NCBI GenBank assembly: GCA_947175145.1 | Contig: CAMWLY010000013.1 | Coordinates: 1 to 36,910, forward strand | Reading direction: 5' to 3' | DNA: 36,910 nt | Source: an uncultured Muribaculaceae bacterium | GTDB taxonomy: Bacteria > Bacteroidota > Bacteroidia > Bacteroidales > Muribaculaceae | Shown: piece by piece, positions 31,711 through 36,910 of the stretch | How positions within the stretch are numbered: the first letter of the stretch is position 1 | Layout: each line of letters begins with the position of its first letter | Notes under the pieces: model-generated | The model's database searches: none | The model's input: the letters and a program-made list of their open reading frames with translations, nothing else | What the model was told of the DNA's origin: nothing | Made by a program: the position numbers and the translations under genes

Positions 31711-31800
31711 GGAGAGGTGGGTGAGTGGCTGAAACCACCAGTTTGCTAAACTGACGTAGGAGCAATCCTACCACGAGTTCGAATCTCGTCCTCTCCGCCA
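31711..31800 (+). tRNA. tRNA-Ser (anticodon GCT)
   Basis: This is a class II tRNA. The acceptor stem GGAGAGG pairs with CCTCTCC, followed by discriminator G and an encoded CCA. The anticodon GCT is at 31745-31747 in the loop TTGCTAA and reads AGC/AGU. The long variable arm is GTAGGA-GCAA-TCCTAC, and the T arm is CGAG-TTCGAAT-CTCG. The outermost pair of the anticodon stem appears to be a C-A mismatch. Confidence 0.96.
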
Positions 31801-31813
31801 TACAGACTAAACA

Positions 31814-31902
31814 GGAAAGATGCCGGAGTGGTCGATCGGGGCGGTCTCGAAAACCGTTGTGCCTTTTAGGTACCGGGGGTTCGAATCCCTCTCTTTCCGC
31901 CA
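31814..31902 (+). tRNA. tRNA-Ser (anticodon CGA)
   Basis: This is a class II tRNA. The acceptor GGAAAGA pairs with TCTTTCC, followed by discriminator G and an encoded CCA. The anticodon CGA at 31848-31850 lies in the loop CTCGAAA and reads UCG. The variable arm is GTGCC-TTTTA-GGTAC, and the T loop is TTCGAAT. It lies 13 bases after the first tRNA-Ser. Its 3' end (TTCCGCCA) and downstream flank recur at 34246. Confidence 0.96.
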
Positions 31903-31976
31903 CTGAAATACAAAGCCCACTGAGTCCCCAGCGGATTTTTTTTTGTCCTTACCATTACCCAACCAAACGTCCGCGA
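31895..31976 (+). repeat. Direct repeat copy 1: tRNA-Ser 3' end, terminator and flank (possible att site)
   Basis: The segment starts at TTCCGCCA of tRNA-Ser(CGA). Its first 41 bases are identical to those beginning at 34246, and most of the rest agrees: a T9 run, GTCC and ACCATTACCCAACC are shared, with scattered differences towards GCGATC. The two copies flank about 2.27 kb of other sequence, in the same orientation. Confidence 0.85.
31917..31943 (+). terminator. Terminator of the tRNA-Ser operon
   Basis: CCACTG and CAGCGG can pair, with one A-C mismatch, around AGTCCC, followed by nine T. It lies directly after the second tRNA and fits an intrinsic terminator. The same structure recurs in the second repeat copy, where no tRNA precedes it. 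Confidence 0.6.
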
Positions 31977-31977
31977 T

Positions 31978-32651
31978 CAGGTAAATGCAAATTCCGCTGA
32001 TACATAAGCAATTCTATCTTTTTTTTGAAAATGTAATAGCTGATTACTTTGACAAATTCGGAAGATTTACGCTAAGACGTAGAAATATTAACAGTCTCAT
32101 AGAGTCTAAAGACACTTGACTCTTGTAGAAAGGCTCTTGAATCATACTCCAGAAAGAACAGCGATCTCTGCTATACTTTGGAAGAGTTTAGCTTTATGAA
32201 TGATTAACCCAACGGAAAGGTATGCGACAACTATAGTATGCCTTTTCTTTTTTTATGTTCCAAAATCTGGTAAACTCCTAATTAATGAAAGAATAAATGC
32301 TTCAGAAGAGCGGTAAATCCAATAATTTTTGCTTACTTTACATACCTTTTGGGGAGAAATCCAGAAGGTTAGGAAAAGCGTTAGCTTTCTTTCGAGGTTA
32401 GGAGAAATCGCCAAATAATATTCACAAGACCCTGGAAGGAAGGATTTACGCTCTTCTGTTTTGTCTATTGCATTCGCGCTTCGCCATTCGCATACAGACT
32501 CAACAGAGAGGGTATTTATTCTTTCTTTTTCAATGGTCTTAGGCGTTTGGCGATGCCTTCCGGATAATGAAAAAGGCGATGAAGTCCTCTCTTTTCTTAT
32601 GTCCAATCATAACAGCCAAATCCGGAGGGCAATAGGCAGACCAAAAGTAAT
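31978..32651. other. Gene-poor 0.67-kb stretch inside the tRNA-flanked segment
   Basis: No convincing gene is seen. There is a strong terminator at 32216-32254, and two weak open frames overlap on opposite strands: 117 codons on - at 32253-32606 and 64 codons on + at 32461-32655. The + frame ends in an ATGA overlap with the next gene. The two cannot both be real as drawn, and neither has family-like motifs. The stretch may hold a small RNA ending at the terminator, a promoter region or decayed mobile DNA. Confidence 0.5.
32216..32254 (+). terminator. Strong intrinsic terminator without an upstream gene
   Basis: AAAGGTATGC pairs with GTATGCCTTT (10 positions, two G-U wobbles) around a 10-base loop, followed by TCTTTTTTT. 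The nearest upstream annotated + strand gene is tRNA-Ser, which has its own terminator 270 bases earlier. Confidence 0.68.
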
Positions 32652-34100
32652 ATGAAGCAGTTCGTGAAGTATCTATTATCTTTGGCTGTTGTGCTATTAT
32701 CTGCACTCACAATTGTCCTATTTGGAATTACAGCAATCTCTTGCACTTCCCGTGCTTCTTCAAAAGACAGAAATGGTTGGGAACGAGGATATTTAATAAA
32801 TGAGAGTGGATCTGAAGACAAGAACTACCCTTGTGTCAGCAAAGCTTTCTCCACGGAGAAGGGCAACATAGTGATATCATTTACAAGAAATGGTTTTATC
32901 TTGGATGGAGATTGGTTGCCGTCTGAGCTTAGCCGTGTCCAAATGAATGATTCAAAAACTGGGTTAATTTATTCTTCCGAATTAACAAAGAACCCAGATG
33001 GCAGATTCGAGGCTGATTTTTCTAAAGTAAGAACTACTTTGATAAACAGTCTAGAGTGTGAAGAGTCACTGCTTAGTGTAATTGAATTAACCGGAATCTT
33101 TAATGGGTTGAAAAGGACCATCAGCGTGTTTATCAATCCGAAGGGAGGAAAAGGCCTTGAAGAAGCTATCTCAACTCATATTAACGGGATTGCCAATGAG
33201 GTTGAATCAAATTTGGAGCCATCATCATGCATGGAGCGAGTCGCGTATTCTATCGGTGTTAAATACATAACTGATCCGCAAATAACTGAGTCGCTTAGAG
33301 AATATCTTCGAAACGAACTAGAAGCAATTACTGGTGCTTCAAAATATGACAATCAGTTAGAACGATTTGCCCGAAAGGGATATATCGATGCTTTCAATGA
33401 TAAACTGATGTTTTCTAAATCTTACTGTGAGCGTCTATTGACACTCGCGGAATGTGAAGGCTCTATTCTTAAGAATGAGATAAGTATACGCAACGAACGA
33501 GATCCGCGGTTGACTGAGCGATTCCATATTTCAATGAACTGTAACTATAGAGACTTGGATAAACTCATAAAAGAAAACTCTGATATCAACTATTGGCCAG
33601 ACAGAATCGTAAATTATGCTCATAAAAGAGATAGTATATTTTCTCTACCTCCGGATAAGTTCAAAACATCAAGCACAGCGGACTCATCACAAGAGGAGCC
33701 AATGGTAGCTTCGAAACCTAGTATCGGAAATTGGACTCTTAAAGATGGTCAGTATGAATCTCCCGTGATAAAAGAGATTGATGGTAAAGGATGTACCGTT
33801 CAGTTTGTTTTGAGAAAGGGGAACATCATAGCCAAATTCAACAGAGTAATTGAGGCAGAATATGACATAAACATTTTGTCAAGTGGCAACGAACATACCA
33901 TCAAGGGAGTACGTAAGGGAAGGACATTTACAATTAGCTCATCTGCCGAGATTCCTATTATATTATCCGCTATGGATCGAGGTAATTTCACTTTCCAATA
34001 TATGTTCTTAGAAAATGGTTCGTCCCATTATGGATGGTTTGATTTTAAAATAGGTCCTCAACTTAAATCTGCATCAGAAGCTTATAAGTCGCTCAACTAA
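32652..34100 (+). CDS. Unrecognised secreted or membrane-anchored protein, 482 aa
   Basis: I cannot assign a family. Residues 7-31 are strongly hydrophobic and end AISC, an imperfect lipobox (Ala at -3), so the protein is either a lipoprotein or anchored by this helix. Residues 45-165 look like a beta-rich domain (GNIVISFTRNGFILDGDW). Residues 175-310 are helical and contain several Cys. A Ser/Thr linker follows (about 338-358). A second beta-rich domain (365-475: GNIIAKFNR, FTFQYMFLENG) may be a distant relative of the first. The frame is clean and of normal length, so the gene is probably real. It is the only substantial gene between the two tRNA-flank repeats, and its wording and AT-rich codons look unlike its neighbours, which suggests transfer. 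The start is supported by the signal segment; no Shine-Dalgarno was seen. Confidence 0.75.
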   Translation: MKQFVKYLLSLAVVLLSALTIVLFGITAISCTSRASSKDRNGWERGYLINESGSEDKNYPCVSKAFSTEKGNIVISFTRNGFILDGDWLPSELSRVQMNDSKTGLIYSSELTKNPDGRFEADFSKVRTTLINSLECEESLLSVIELTGIFNGLKRTISVFINPKGGKGLEEAISTHINGIANEVESNLEPSSCMERVAYSIGVKYITDPQITESLREYLRNELEAITGASKYDNQLERFARKGYIDAFNDKLMFSKSYCERLLTLAECEGSILKNEISIRNERDPRLTERFHISMNCNYRDLDKLIKENSDINYWPDRIVNYAHKRDSIFSLPPDKFKTSSTADSSQEEPMVASKPSIGNWTLKDGQYESPVIKEIDGKGCTVQFVLRKGNIIAKFNRVIEAEYDINILSSGNEHTIKGVRKGRTFTISSSAEIPIILSAMDRGNFTFQYMFLENGSSHYGWFDFKIGPQLKSASEAYKSLN

Positions 34101-34122
34101 TTGGTTATTATAAAACAAAATC

Positions 34123-34152
34123 AGCAGCTCACTCTTAACCGAGTGGGCTGTT
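34123..34152. terminator. Hairpin downstream of the 482-aa gene
   Basis: AGCAGCTCACTC pairs with GAGTGGGCTGTT (12 positions, two G-U wobbles) around TTAACC, 22 bases after the stop. A T-rich tract follows only on the - strand (GATTTTGTTTTAT), so its direction is unclear. Confidence 0.5.
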
Positions 34153-34245
34153 ATACTTATGGTGAGTAAAAGAAAAATGAAGTGTCGCAATCAATCCCCT
34201 TCGGATTAACTTAGCTCTTCTCTTGGGGCAGCTTCAGTTTTAGGC

Positions 34246-34330
34246 TTCCGCCACTGAAATACAAAGCCCACTGAGTCCCCAGCGGACTTTTTTTTTGTCC
34301 CAACCATTACCCAACCCACATGTCTGCGAT
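34246..34330 (+). repeat. Direct repeat copy 2: tRNA-Ser 3' tail and terminator without the tRNA
   Basis: This copy starts with TTCCGCCA and CTGAAATACAAAGCCCACTG exactly as at 31895, and continues through the terminator hairpin, T9 run and CCATTACCCAACC. Upstream of TTCCGCCA the sequence is unrelated to a tRNA (GCTTCAGTTTTAGGC), so only the last 8 bases of the tRNA are present. One extra C precedes the T run. Confidence 0.85.
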
Positions 34331-34449
34331 CTAAGGGCTCAATGGGCTCAATATAAAAAGAACGGTGCAATGTGAAAGCACAGCACCCCAAAGGTTCATT
34401 GACTTTTGGAGTGCTGATTCAGTTCTGCACGCTTAATAAGTGCCTATCA
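34331..34449. other. Intergenic end region with imperfect hairpin
   Basis: Together with the repeat above, this fills the gap between the 482-aa gene and the GH32 gene. AGCACCCCAAAGG (34382-34394) pairs imperfectly with CTTTTGGAGTGCT (34403-34415) and may end the - strand GH32 transcript, although the T-rich tract lies some distance beyond. No gene was seen. Confidence 0.4.
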
Positions 34450-36910
34450 TTACTTAATCACATACTTTTTGGTAGCTGAACCCTTGCGACAGATGTAAAC
34501 TCCGGGAGCGCCGGGAGCTGCAACCTTAATACCGTGAAGTGTAAACCATTCCTCAGGTGCATCCTCCAACTCCTCAAAGGTGTCAAGTGTTCCGGTTACT
34601 ACAGCTTCAACGGGTGAAAGATAACTGATAATATTAGCGGAAAGTTTCTTCACATTGTCGATTGCAGTATTCTCTACATGGAATTCGTGAGCTGCAAGAC
34701 CATTGGTCATAATTGTGCCACGACGTGCATCTATCATATCCTTTGAGGCAGCACGGTGCTGAGCATTGGCTGAACTGCGAGGTAAGAACTCTACAAGGCC
34801 GGCAAACTCCTGACCCCCATTGTGACCCCATGTGCCAATCACTCTTGCATTGTTTTCACGGCAGAAATTGTCGTGTCCTCCGCACTCATTCAGACGCCAC
34901 ATGCAATTGTGATCTTCACGCCAATAGTTGCTTTCGGCAAGAAGCACCAACACACCATGTGATTCGCGCGTTGTTTCGATACCTTGGAAAATAGCATGTC
35001 CAGACCAATCTGCATCTTCATGATGTGCGATATTCATTTGCCAAGGATCCGAATTAACACCACCATTTCCACTGTTGAACTCAGTCAGGTCATGACCGGT
35101 ACGTTCCATAGCCACTACAAGCTGAGAAGCCATTTTTGAGAGATATACATTACCACCATCGTTATTGAAATCTGTCAGATTATCCACGATGCTTGTATAT
35201 GTGGCAGGAAGATTACGCCAACCCTGCGGTAGCCCCTTGCGATCGCAATGTACCCAAATACAATCGAAGTATTCAGTGTTCAGACGGTCGAAGTCACCGG
35301 TATAAAGTACTTCTCCTGTCGGGAATGCAGACTTAAAGAAATCATATATCAGCTTATCCTGAGGATAATTCTGCTCTGAAGCTGTAATGAAATCGCTCTC
35401 TGACTCATAACCTAAATAAAGAGCCACTTTACCGGTTGATTCCAATACTTCACTTGGTTCTTCAGGATCTTCCGGTTCCTCGGGAGGTGTTACAACGGAT
35501 ACATGGGGATTCTCCGGCTTCTGACCATCTTTATTAGCAAGATACACAAAAGCATTAGCAGTAAGAAGCATCAGATTCTCGGCATCGCTGTTACCTGCAC
35601 CCTCAACATGCCACTGACATGCTGCAAGACCGTTAGCTAAGATTGTTCCTGACCATTTATCGCTGTCTGCATCTACTTGTGTCGGATAGAACTCGATAAT
35701 ACCTGCCCAACCATCAGATTGCTCCTGACCCCAGGTGCCAAGCACTTTGGCTGCGTTATCCTCTTCGAATCGTTTGATGTTATCATCAGCAGTTGAAGTA
35801 TAGACAAAATCAGACAGATGCCACATACAATTGTGATCCTCTCGGCGAATTTGCTCACCACCACCATAAAGCATACCGTAAGTAGTCCATGCATAGCAAT
35901 CGCTTCTCTCAAGGTCAGAGTAAATCCGGTGTCCTGTGCGGTCATACTTACCTCCTATTAACCATGGATTGACAGTCCATTCATCATCACCGTCATTACC
36001 GTCACCGGCATTATATTCGTTGGGCGCAAACGATGAGGAAATACGATTCAAGGTTTCAAGAAGCTGAGTAGCCTGACCGGTGAGATAAAGATTACCGCCA
36101 TCAGCCACATACTTCTTGAGTGAAGCTACCAATGCACCATCTATAAATTCACCGGGAAGATTAGATGCGCCTTTGGGGAGACCCATACGGTCAATATGAA
36201 TCCACACGCAATCAAAATCAGATGCCTTGATTTTCTGAGGTTCCGAAGTTAGAATGATGTTGTTGTTTTTCAACTTGCCGGTAAAGAACTCACGGGCAGC
36301 CTGCTCTTGAGCGCTCATACCATCAGCTACGCACAGGAATGCCACTTTGCCCGAGTTGGCCGGAAGTGAGAATTCTTTGGGAACGATTGGCTCACTGCTC
36401 ATATCTCCATTTCCAAGCACGTATGCCTCGGCGGAAGCAAGAGTAGTTTGACCATTAGAGAACAGTTCAATCAAATCGGCATTGTCATCGTCCGGGAAAA
36501 TACGCACTGATGCTGCATAACGATCATTTACAAAGATGTCTACAATCGAGTGATCGATAAATACATGGAGTTTCAATTCCTCTCCTTTGCGGGGGCCGAG
36601 ATCAAGAACTGTGCGGAAAGAGGTCTTGCCATTGTCATAATGCGCTATTCGGCTGTAGTCTACCACAATTTCGCGATTAGCCGGATTGTAGGAAATATAT
36701 GCTGTCTTTCCTTTGGCGTTCTTGAAGAAATTGAGACCGACTGTAGCATCGGAAAGAATAAATCGAGCGCAAATTTCGGCCTCACGACCGCGAACCGGAT
36801 TCAGATTAAGAGTGCCGTCAAGATTTGTTTGACCGACATTCATTTTCATTGTAGCATGTCTATACGCTTTGATACCCTCGTATGGTTTCTGAAGAAGACG
36901 TCCCTCTGAA
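34450..36910 (-). CDS. GH32-family glycoside hydrolase, C-terminal part with two accessory domains (partial)
   Basis: The frame is open through the right edge of the window, so the N-terminus and catalytic five-blade propeller lie outside. Residues are counted from an internal Met at 36849. The first 150 form the GH32 C-terminal beta-sandwich (KLHVFIDHSIVDIFVNDRYAASVRIFP), seen in levanases, inulinases and invertases that cleave fructans or sucrose. Two homologous domains follow (about 167-440 and 472-747). Each starts GKVA(F/L), has FDC(V/I)W(I/V)H.DR.GLP and the near-identical REDHNCMW, and ends in a WHVE/FHVE-A-N-like stretch. They resemble the DUF4960-type modules of Bacteroidetes GH32 proteins (from memory, unverified). 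A Pro/Glu linker separates them. The C-terminal 50 residues end GVYICRKGSATKKYVIK, like a type IX secretion sorting tail. The role is extracellular fructan use. Confidence 0.85.
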   Translation of the reverse strand, partial: SEGRLLQKPYEGIKAYRHATMKMNVGQTNLDGTLNLNPVRGREAEICARFILSDATVGLNFFKNAKGKTAYISYNPANREIVVDYSRIAHYDNGKTSFRTVLDLGPRKGEELKLHVFIDHSIVDIFVNDRYAASVRIFPDDDNADLIELFSNGQTTLASAEAYVLGNGDMSSEPIVPKEFSLPANSGKVAFLCVADGMSAQEQAAREFFTGKLKNNNIILTSEPQKIKASDFDCVWIHIDRMGLPKGASNLPGEFIDGALVASLKKYVADGGNLYLTGQATQLLETLNRISSSFAPNEYNAGDGNDGDDEWTVNPWLIGGKYDRTGHRIYSDLERSDCYAWTTYGMLYGGGEQIRREDHNCMWHLSDFVYTSTADDNIKRFEEDNAAKVLGTWGQEQSDGWAGIIEFYPTQVDADSDKWSGTILANGLAACQWHVEGAGNSDAENLMLLTANAFVYLANKDGQKPENPHVSVVTPPEEPEDPEEPSEVLESTGKVALYLGYESESDFITASEQNYPQDKLIYDFFKSAFPTGEVLYTGDFDRLNTEYFDCIWVHCDRKGLPQGWRNLPATYTSIVDNLTDFNNDGGNVYLSKMASQLVVAMERTGHDLTEFNSGNGGVNSDPWQMNIAHHEDADWSGHAIFQGIETTRESHGVLVLLAESNYWREDHNCMWRLNECGGHDNFCRENNARVIGTWGHNGGQEFAGLVEFLPRSSANAQHRAASKDMIDARRGTIMTNGLAAHEFHVENTAIDNVKKLSANIISYLSPVEAVVTGTLDTFEELEDAPEEWFTLHGIKVAAPGAPGVYICRKGSATKKYVIK

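Follow-up and report, generated by a model that had tools for sequence, protein, structure and literature searches.

The tRNA-Ser locus and its direct repeat

The window, the whole stretch of 36,910 nucleotides that was analysed, is contig C13 of genome G000 (2.07 Mb, 139 contigs). It contains two adjoining tRNA-Ser genes, with tRNA-Ser(GCT) directly preceding tRNA-Ser(CGA), and behind them a segment enclosed by a direct repeat that holds the tail of a gene, a copy of a structured RNA, a cargo gene and a 3' element:

31711-31800, + strand: tRNA-Ser(GCT) (ARAGORN; Rfam tRNA 54.6 bits)
31814-31902, + strand: tRNA-Ser(CGA) (ARAGORN; Rfam tRNA 53.1 bits)
31895-31978, + strand: repeat copy 1, the final 8 nt of tRNA-Ser(CGA) and 76 nt of flank with a T-run
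32103-32207, + strand: 3' end of an upstream gene, frame ...SDLCYTLEEFSFMND, then stop
32291-32604, + strand: structured leader RNA copy, probably decayed (model R1, 185.7 bits)
32333-32341, + strand: degenerate TAnnTTTG (-7-like) box
32407-32415, + strand: ATCGCCAAA, 5' strand of the pseudoknot
32546-32554, + strand: TTTGGCGAT, loop of P7 and 3' strand of the pseudoknot
32652-34100, + strand: cargo gene, 482 aa, one N-terminal hydrophobic segment and no known domain
34119-34220, + strand: 3' element, a terminator-like hairpin and a GAAGTG..GCTCTTC palindrome
34246-34331, + strand: repeat copy 2, with no tRNA body 5' of it

An earlier sequence-only reading of this DNA had proposed that about 85 bp from the 3' end and flank of tRNA-Ser(CGA) recur 2.35 kb downstream, and this was confirmed. 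The two copies are spaced 2351 nt apart from start to start and their gapped alignment of 86 columns contains 79 identities, five mismatches and two single-base gaps, with the tRNA accounting for 8 nt (31895-31902) and downstream flank with a T-run for the remainder. A DNA search of the genome itself listed copy 1 and copy 2 and no third copy. We regard the RNA of ~310 nt, together with the variable gene or operon that follows it, as a putative module, and 51 module loci were all examined alike for a long direct repeat between upstream and downstream sequence. Such a repeat was found in the window (47 points over 50 nt) and in none of the other 50, the runner-up anywhere among the 51 loci scoring 16, and a control using reversed sequence gave none; the repeat is therefore not due to chance. 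A further direct repeat pairing 31799, in the tRNA spacer, with 32491 was rejected as a fortuitous resemblance to a part of the leader RNA that is conserved.

The absence of a tRNA body before copy 2 also held up. Local alignment of the preceding DNA to both tRNA-Ser bodies found no relic, the best score for either being 14, a value reached by 114/300 shuffles for the CGA and 159/300 for the GCT gene. The alternative that a second tRNA with the same flank has been lost would explain why flank of identical type follows both places, but with no relic before copy 2 and no second tRNA among 28 loci examined around relatives' tRNA-Ser genes we find it scarcely credible.

ARAGORN identified tRNA-Ser(CGA) in 25 of these 28 loci, and all 25 lack both the segment and its flank, although in three cases the contig stops no more than 46 nt from the tRNA; the possibility that relatives carry the same segment in place was thus not borne out. 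BLAST returned no match in the relatives' tRNA-Ser loci to the flank (31903-31990) or to the stretch after copy 2, and matched the segment solely at a contig end of G009 (L209), by way of the 3' element, while the leader model gave only noise there (best 12.8 bits). The insertion seen in the window is not shared by the relatives examined. A clean empty site was not seen among the 25 tRNA-Ser(CGA) loci, all of which are without the window's flank. The two tRNA-Ser genes were not seen side by side in the relatives' tRNA-Ser(CGA) stretches, which indicates that the region has been rearranged.

Within the segment, the DNA block at 32083-32254, which includes the gene tail, shares 72-75% identity with the DNA that precedes the leader RNA in L080/L255, L253 and L298. 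The cargo gene is the one convincing ORF of the enclosed DNA, and the lack of an integrase inside the segment, as first proposed, stands. The cargo protein matched no Pfam family at E values up to 1 and, by sequence, a single PDB entry at E 0.26; its predicted structure, made from two sequences, has a mean pLDDT of 47.3. Among 198 family genomes one relative was found, in G249, which is 32% identical over 365 residues and lies behind the same leader RNA. The 3' element has 79-89% identity to sequences in G284 (L080), G330 (L089) and G009 (contig end).

Other origins were considered and rejected. Positions 31900-34400 had no match in plasmid and phage collections, and the RNA pattern had none in viral contigs. 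As for a defence system, PADLOC gave only weak matches for ten proteins, of which the dynamin-like LeoA/LeoBC was best (E 8.9e-11) and the others weaker.

A structured RNA in front of the cargo gene

The RNA was searched for with R1, a sequence-only model built from 16 copies that include the window's own. The window sequence at 32290-32650 folds with a z of -5.9 relative to shuffles, and 43 of 51 strong copies were brought into an alignment (A3), from which L072, L079, L085, L087 and L175-L178 were left out. The aligned copies begin with the left arms of P1 and P2, the TAnnTTTG box, hairpin P3, AAAAGYGT with GCTTT, and ATCGCCAA, continue with the right arm of P2, then P5 as a stem, the P6 5' strand and the P1 right arm, and end with hairpin P7, whose loop carries TTGGCG, followed by the second P8 strand, the P6 3' strand and CTTTTC.

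When this structure was held fixed on the 43 copies, 89.5% of cells were paired and 24 of 62 pairs had changed on both sides, a level that 0/500 shuffles reached. Controls with slid partners paired at 32-49%, a comparison biased towards the fixed structure as its helices were chosen by eye on the same alignment. The pseudoknot CGCCAA/TTGGCG is paired in 43/43 copies. P8 was noticed later and tested separately, by pairing the segment directly before ATCGCCAA with that directly behind P7. Over 70 strong copies, some of them near-identical, own partners scored 19.18, against a mean of 12.24 and a maximum of 13.30 in 200 partner shuffles, and over 28 distant copies 18.08, against 12.54 and 14.07; 1/71 strong and 1/29 distant copies could not be parsed, and two distant copies (L183 and L184) were mis-parsed, which counts against the result. 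The sequence of P8 differs between copies while its pairing is kept. The copies thus have a conserved fold with compensatory changes, as expected of a cis-acting leader RNA.

P6 followed by CTTTTCTT has the G+C stem and T-run of an intrinsic terminator or attenuator, and its inner pairs are present in 43/43 copies and its outer pairs in 37/43. In P1, 13/43 copies retain at most 8 of the 11 pairs, and the TAnnTTTG box, present in 44 of the 46 copies with a full 5' end (it is absent in the window and L072), lies 3' of the left P1 and P2 arms; for these reasons the left arms may be outside the main transcript. A further helix, P0, would join AAAAG to the 3' CTTTT; 7-10 of its 10 positions are paired in the 43 copies, but with hardly any variation and at an offset selected as the best, so that it is only suggestive.

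Bacteroidales invertible promoters are flanked by inverted repeats, and positions 32291-32604 resemble them in having complementary left and right arms, P1 and P2, around a promoter-like box. A DNA-level invertible promoter is nevertheless very improbable here and was rejected, since no copy among those aligned is inverted: all have one order rather than both orientations, the partial matches examined proved to be contig ends or truncated copies, and the additional helices P3, P7 and P8 covary and lie outside the logic of the arms.

The window's copy differs from nearly all others in two places. Its P8 score of 9.3 is the lowest of the 70 strong copies and its TAnnTTTG box is broken as well as P8, and the window RNA is therefore probably worn out, as judged from sequence. 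The cargo ORF downstream is nevertheless intact, and the module is thus not necessarily dead.

Distribution of the RNA and the genes behind it

The noncoding part before the ORF matches DNA in 26/297 family genomes, and R1 has matches in at least 148/297; both this count and that of 51 matches above 85 bits in 36/297 genomes (the others listed reach at most 62 bits) are lower bounds with rough E-values, five candidates having been scored per genome. At order level at least 33/295 genomes match. Neither the window stretch nor any of 11 loci had an Rfam 15 match to the leader. Scanning named genomes for the pattern returned 60 stretches, 58 of them in records labelled as Bacteroidales-type MAGs apart from L266. 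The latter, labelled Clostridium sp., is contig C11 of G176, a genome of the window's own family, and the label looks wrong. Two stretches, L254 (Maribacter, another order of Bacteroidota) and L283 (Acidobacteriales), had no model match and were taken as chance.

Copies also occur in tandem (L307 6103-6891, L300 218-960, L289 2731-4359 and L086 7264-7796), at a spacing of ~100-150 bp in L307 and L300. Truncated copies with only the first 95 model positions, comprising the left arms, box and P3, were seen at L149 4150-4242 and L231 4494-4585. Contigs end inside or beside the RNA in G219:C29, G328:C99, L088, L168, L178 and L150, as would happen with a repeated or variable element.

A same-strand ORF starts between -60 and 300 nt from the model end in 53/61 loci, so that the RNA lies close before a gene, as a leader does, and in 31/58 loci the first downstream ORF begins 40-80 nt past the model end. 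The genes that follow are unrelated to one another in many cases: the first genes of 53 loci form 37 clusters, although clusters may have been merged through residues encoded within the RNA. Proteins encoded downstream include SPFH, tubulin-like, dynamin-like, PP2C, SHOCT, BspA-type leucine-rich repeat and PEGA types, and many are without a family. Some cargo families follow both strong and distant copies of the RNA (e.g. L076, L159, L184 and L188), which speaks for the distant copies being genuine relatives.

Its place and structure lead us to propose that the RNA forms the transcribed 5' leader of the gene behind it and regulates that gene in cis. Control could operate through the pairing of P6 and of the CTTTTC tract on the 3' side, which directly precedes the ribosome-binding region, either by attenuation or by access to the start site. 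Riboswitches and transcription attenuators are positioned 5' of operons, and the RNA shares with them this position, the terminator-like P6 with its T-tract and the tandem copies (L307, L300), but the genes behind it have no obvious common metabolic theme and its T-tract can pair with the upstream AAAAG.

Large structured leader RNAs have reportedly been found by comparative genomics (Weinberg et al. 2010, PMC2864571; Fremin and Bhatt 2021, PMC8040213). The present RNA is like these in its covarying fold and its intergenic position upstream of genes, and some of them are palindromic and terminator-like in Bacteroidetes, as here; Fremin and Bhatt 2021 mention palindromic candidates in Bacteroidetes. 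The present RNA differs in having no Rfam match, a length of ~310 nt, a pseudoknot, a long-range helix and an inconstant gene behind it, although overlap with the motifs of these studies is possible. Among the papers listed by the literature searches, none describes the leader RNA by title or abstract, and we make no claim that it is absent from print.

If the leader works as proposed, it would be a control layer, family-wide in abundant gut bacteria, that has no Rfam 15 entry, and the RNA would mark horizontally variable genes of unknown function. One RNA model also serves as a handle for collecting cargo genes. A broader and speculative reading, which we think unlikely, is that shuffled operons of membrane, secreted and GTPase type are led, across Muribaculaceae-like Bacteroidales, by a large pseudoknotted regulatory RNA of a new class. 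One signal would then switch many unrelated genes that are traded horizontally, and what is traded and parked behind tRNA genes would be the RNA-led unit itself.

Placement behind tRNA genes and origin of the segment

Of 80 copies examined, seven start 86-511 bp behind a same-strand tRNA (the window, L089, L152, L165, L182, L220 and L226), and the other three possible arrangements of tRNA and RNA within 700 bp did not occur. At an assumed density of 45 tRNAs per 2.5 Mb about 0.45 such copies would be expected, so that the RNA is in excess behind tRNAs, though the estimate is rough and the count includes the window itself. There was no tRNA in 17 further loci with 20 copies, making the total 7/100 copies that start within 700 bp behind a same-strand tRNA. 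L088 has a further tRNA, cut by a contig end. Modules with different cargo lie behind a tRNA of this kind in two other genomes: behind tRNA-Ser(CGA) in G330 (L089), and in G249 (L088), whose contig opens within a tRNA that shares its 3' part. The repeat at the tRNA end was absent from the 7 other tRNA-linked copies, each examined over 2.7-18.8 kb of downstream sequence.

Some integrative elements and satellites use the 3' ends of tRNA genes. The window has in common with them a direct repeat that encloses foreign-looking DNA and has one copy at the 3' end of a tRNA, but it differs in that no integrase or recombinase of its own is present, the sole convincing ORF being without a family, the repeat lies mostly outside the tRNA, and related modules do not have the same boundaries (1/51 module loci; 0/7 other tRNA-linked copies). 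The sequence-only reading had considered a minimal element moved in trans, a satellite or a remnant. In a minimal element or satellite the repeats would be working attL and attR sites, and an integrase elsewhere would excise and move the 2.35 kb. A repeat at a tRNA 3' end with no integrase inside, and modules that recur behind tRNAs, are what such an element would give. Against a minimal element or satellite are the confinement of the repeat to the window locus, the seven differences between its copies, distances from tRNA to RNA of 86-511 bp that do not fit one integration point, and the lack of phage, plasmid or viral-contig matches for segment and RNA pattern, and we consider it improbable; an autonomous or trans-moved element is unsupported here. 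The earlier interpretation therefore survives in part: the repeat, the missing integrase, the link to tRNA 3' flanks and the character of a remnant stand, the last through a leader broken at two points that nearly all other copies keep and an upstream gene of which only the 3' tail survives, whereas movement in trans does not.

We conclude that the segment is probably the relic of a leader-plus-cargo module behind tRNA-Ser(CGA), a kind of site at which such modules are found repeatedly. Insertion at the tRNA flank would have brought the module there, and either this event or a later recombination may have left the 85-bp repeat as its scar. A tRNA-flank repeat without an integrase is thus no sure sign of a working element, since a decayed regulatory module can lie between its copies.

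Two other histories compete with this relic. The segment could be the deletion scar of a larger integrative island that kept attL and attR, lost its integrase and most genes, and left one leader-plus-cargo unit. The truncated upstream gene, the broken leader RNA, the diverged repeats and a serine recombinase upstream of the RNA in L253 (PF00239), with a close homologue in L070, are consistent with this, but no remains of an island were recognised and no relative examined has a full one behind tRNA-Ser(CGA), leaving it possible, if on balance doubtful. Alternatively, ordinary recombination may have duplicated the tRNA terminator block locally, before or after the module arrived, in which case the repeat would be unrelated to mobility. 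Nine tenths of the repeat is flank rather than tRNA, and the absence of the adjacent tRNA-Ser pair in relatives points to a rearranged region, yet copy 1 coincides precisely with a tRNA 3' end, and copy 2 lies immediately past the 3' element of the module; we regard a local duplication as rather doubtful.

The serine recombinase lies at 3529-4245 in L253 and its close homologue at 6087-6845 in L070, and these two loci have neighbouring genes in common. The 3' element was found behind or near modules in four genomes (window 34119-34220, L089 3597-3691, L080 4297-4398 and L209 9156-9216); the G009 instance occupies a contig end, and the contig that carries tRNA-Ser(CGA) in this genome also stops right behind the tRNA. 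Beyond copy 2, toward the contig end, the gene at 34450-36849 encodes a GH32 C-terminal domain and DUF4960. The loci of six relatives of this gene contained no tRNA; relatives occur in 89/111 genus genomes, with six matches in its own genome, and the nearest has 48% identity.
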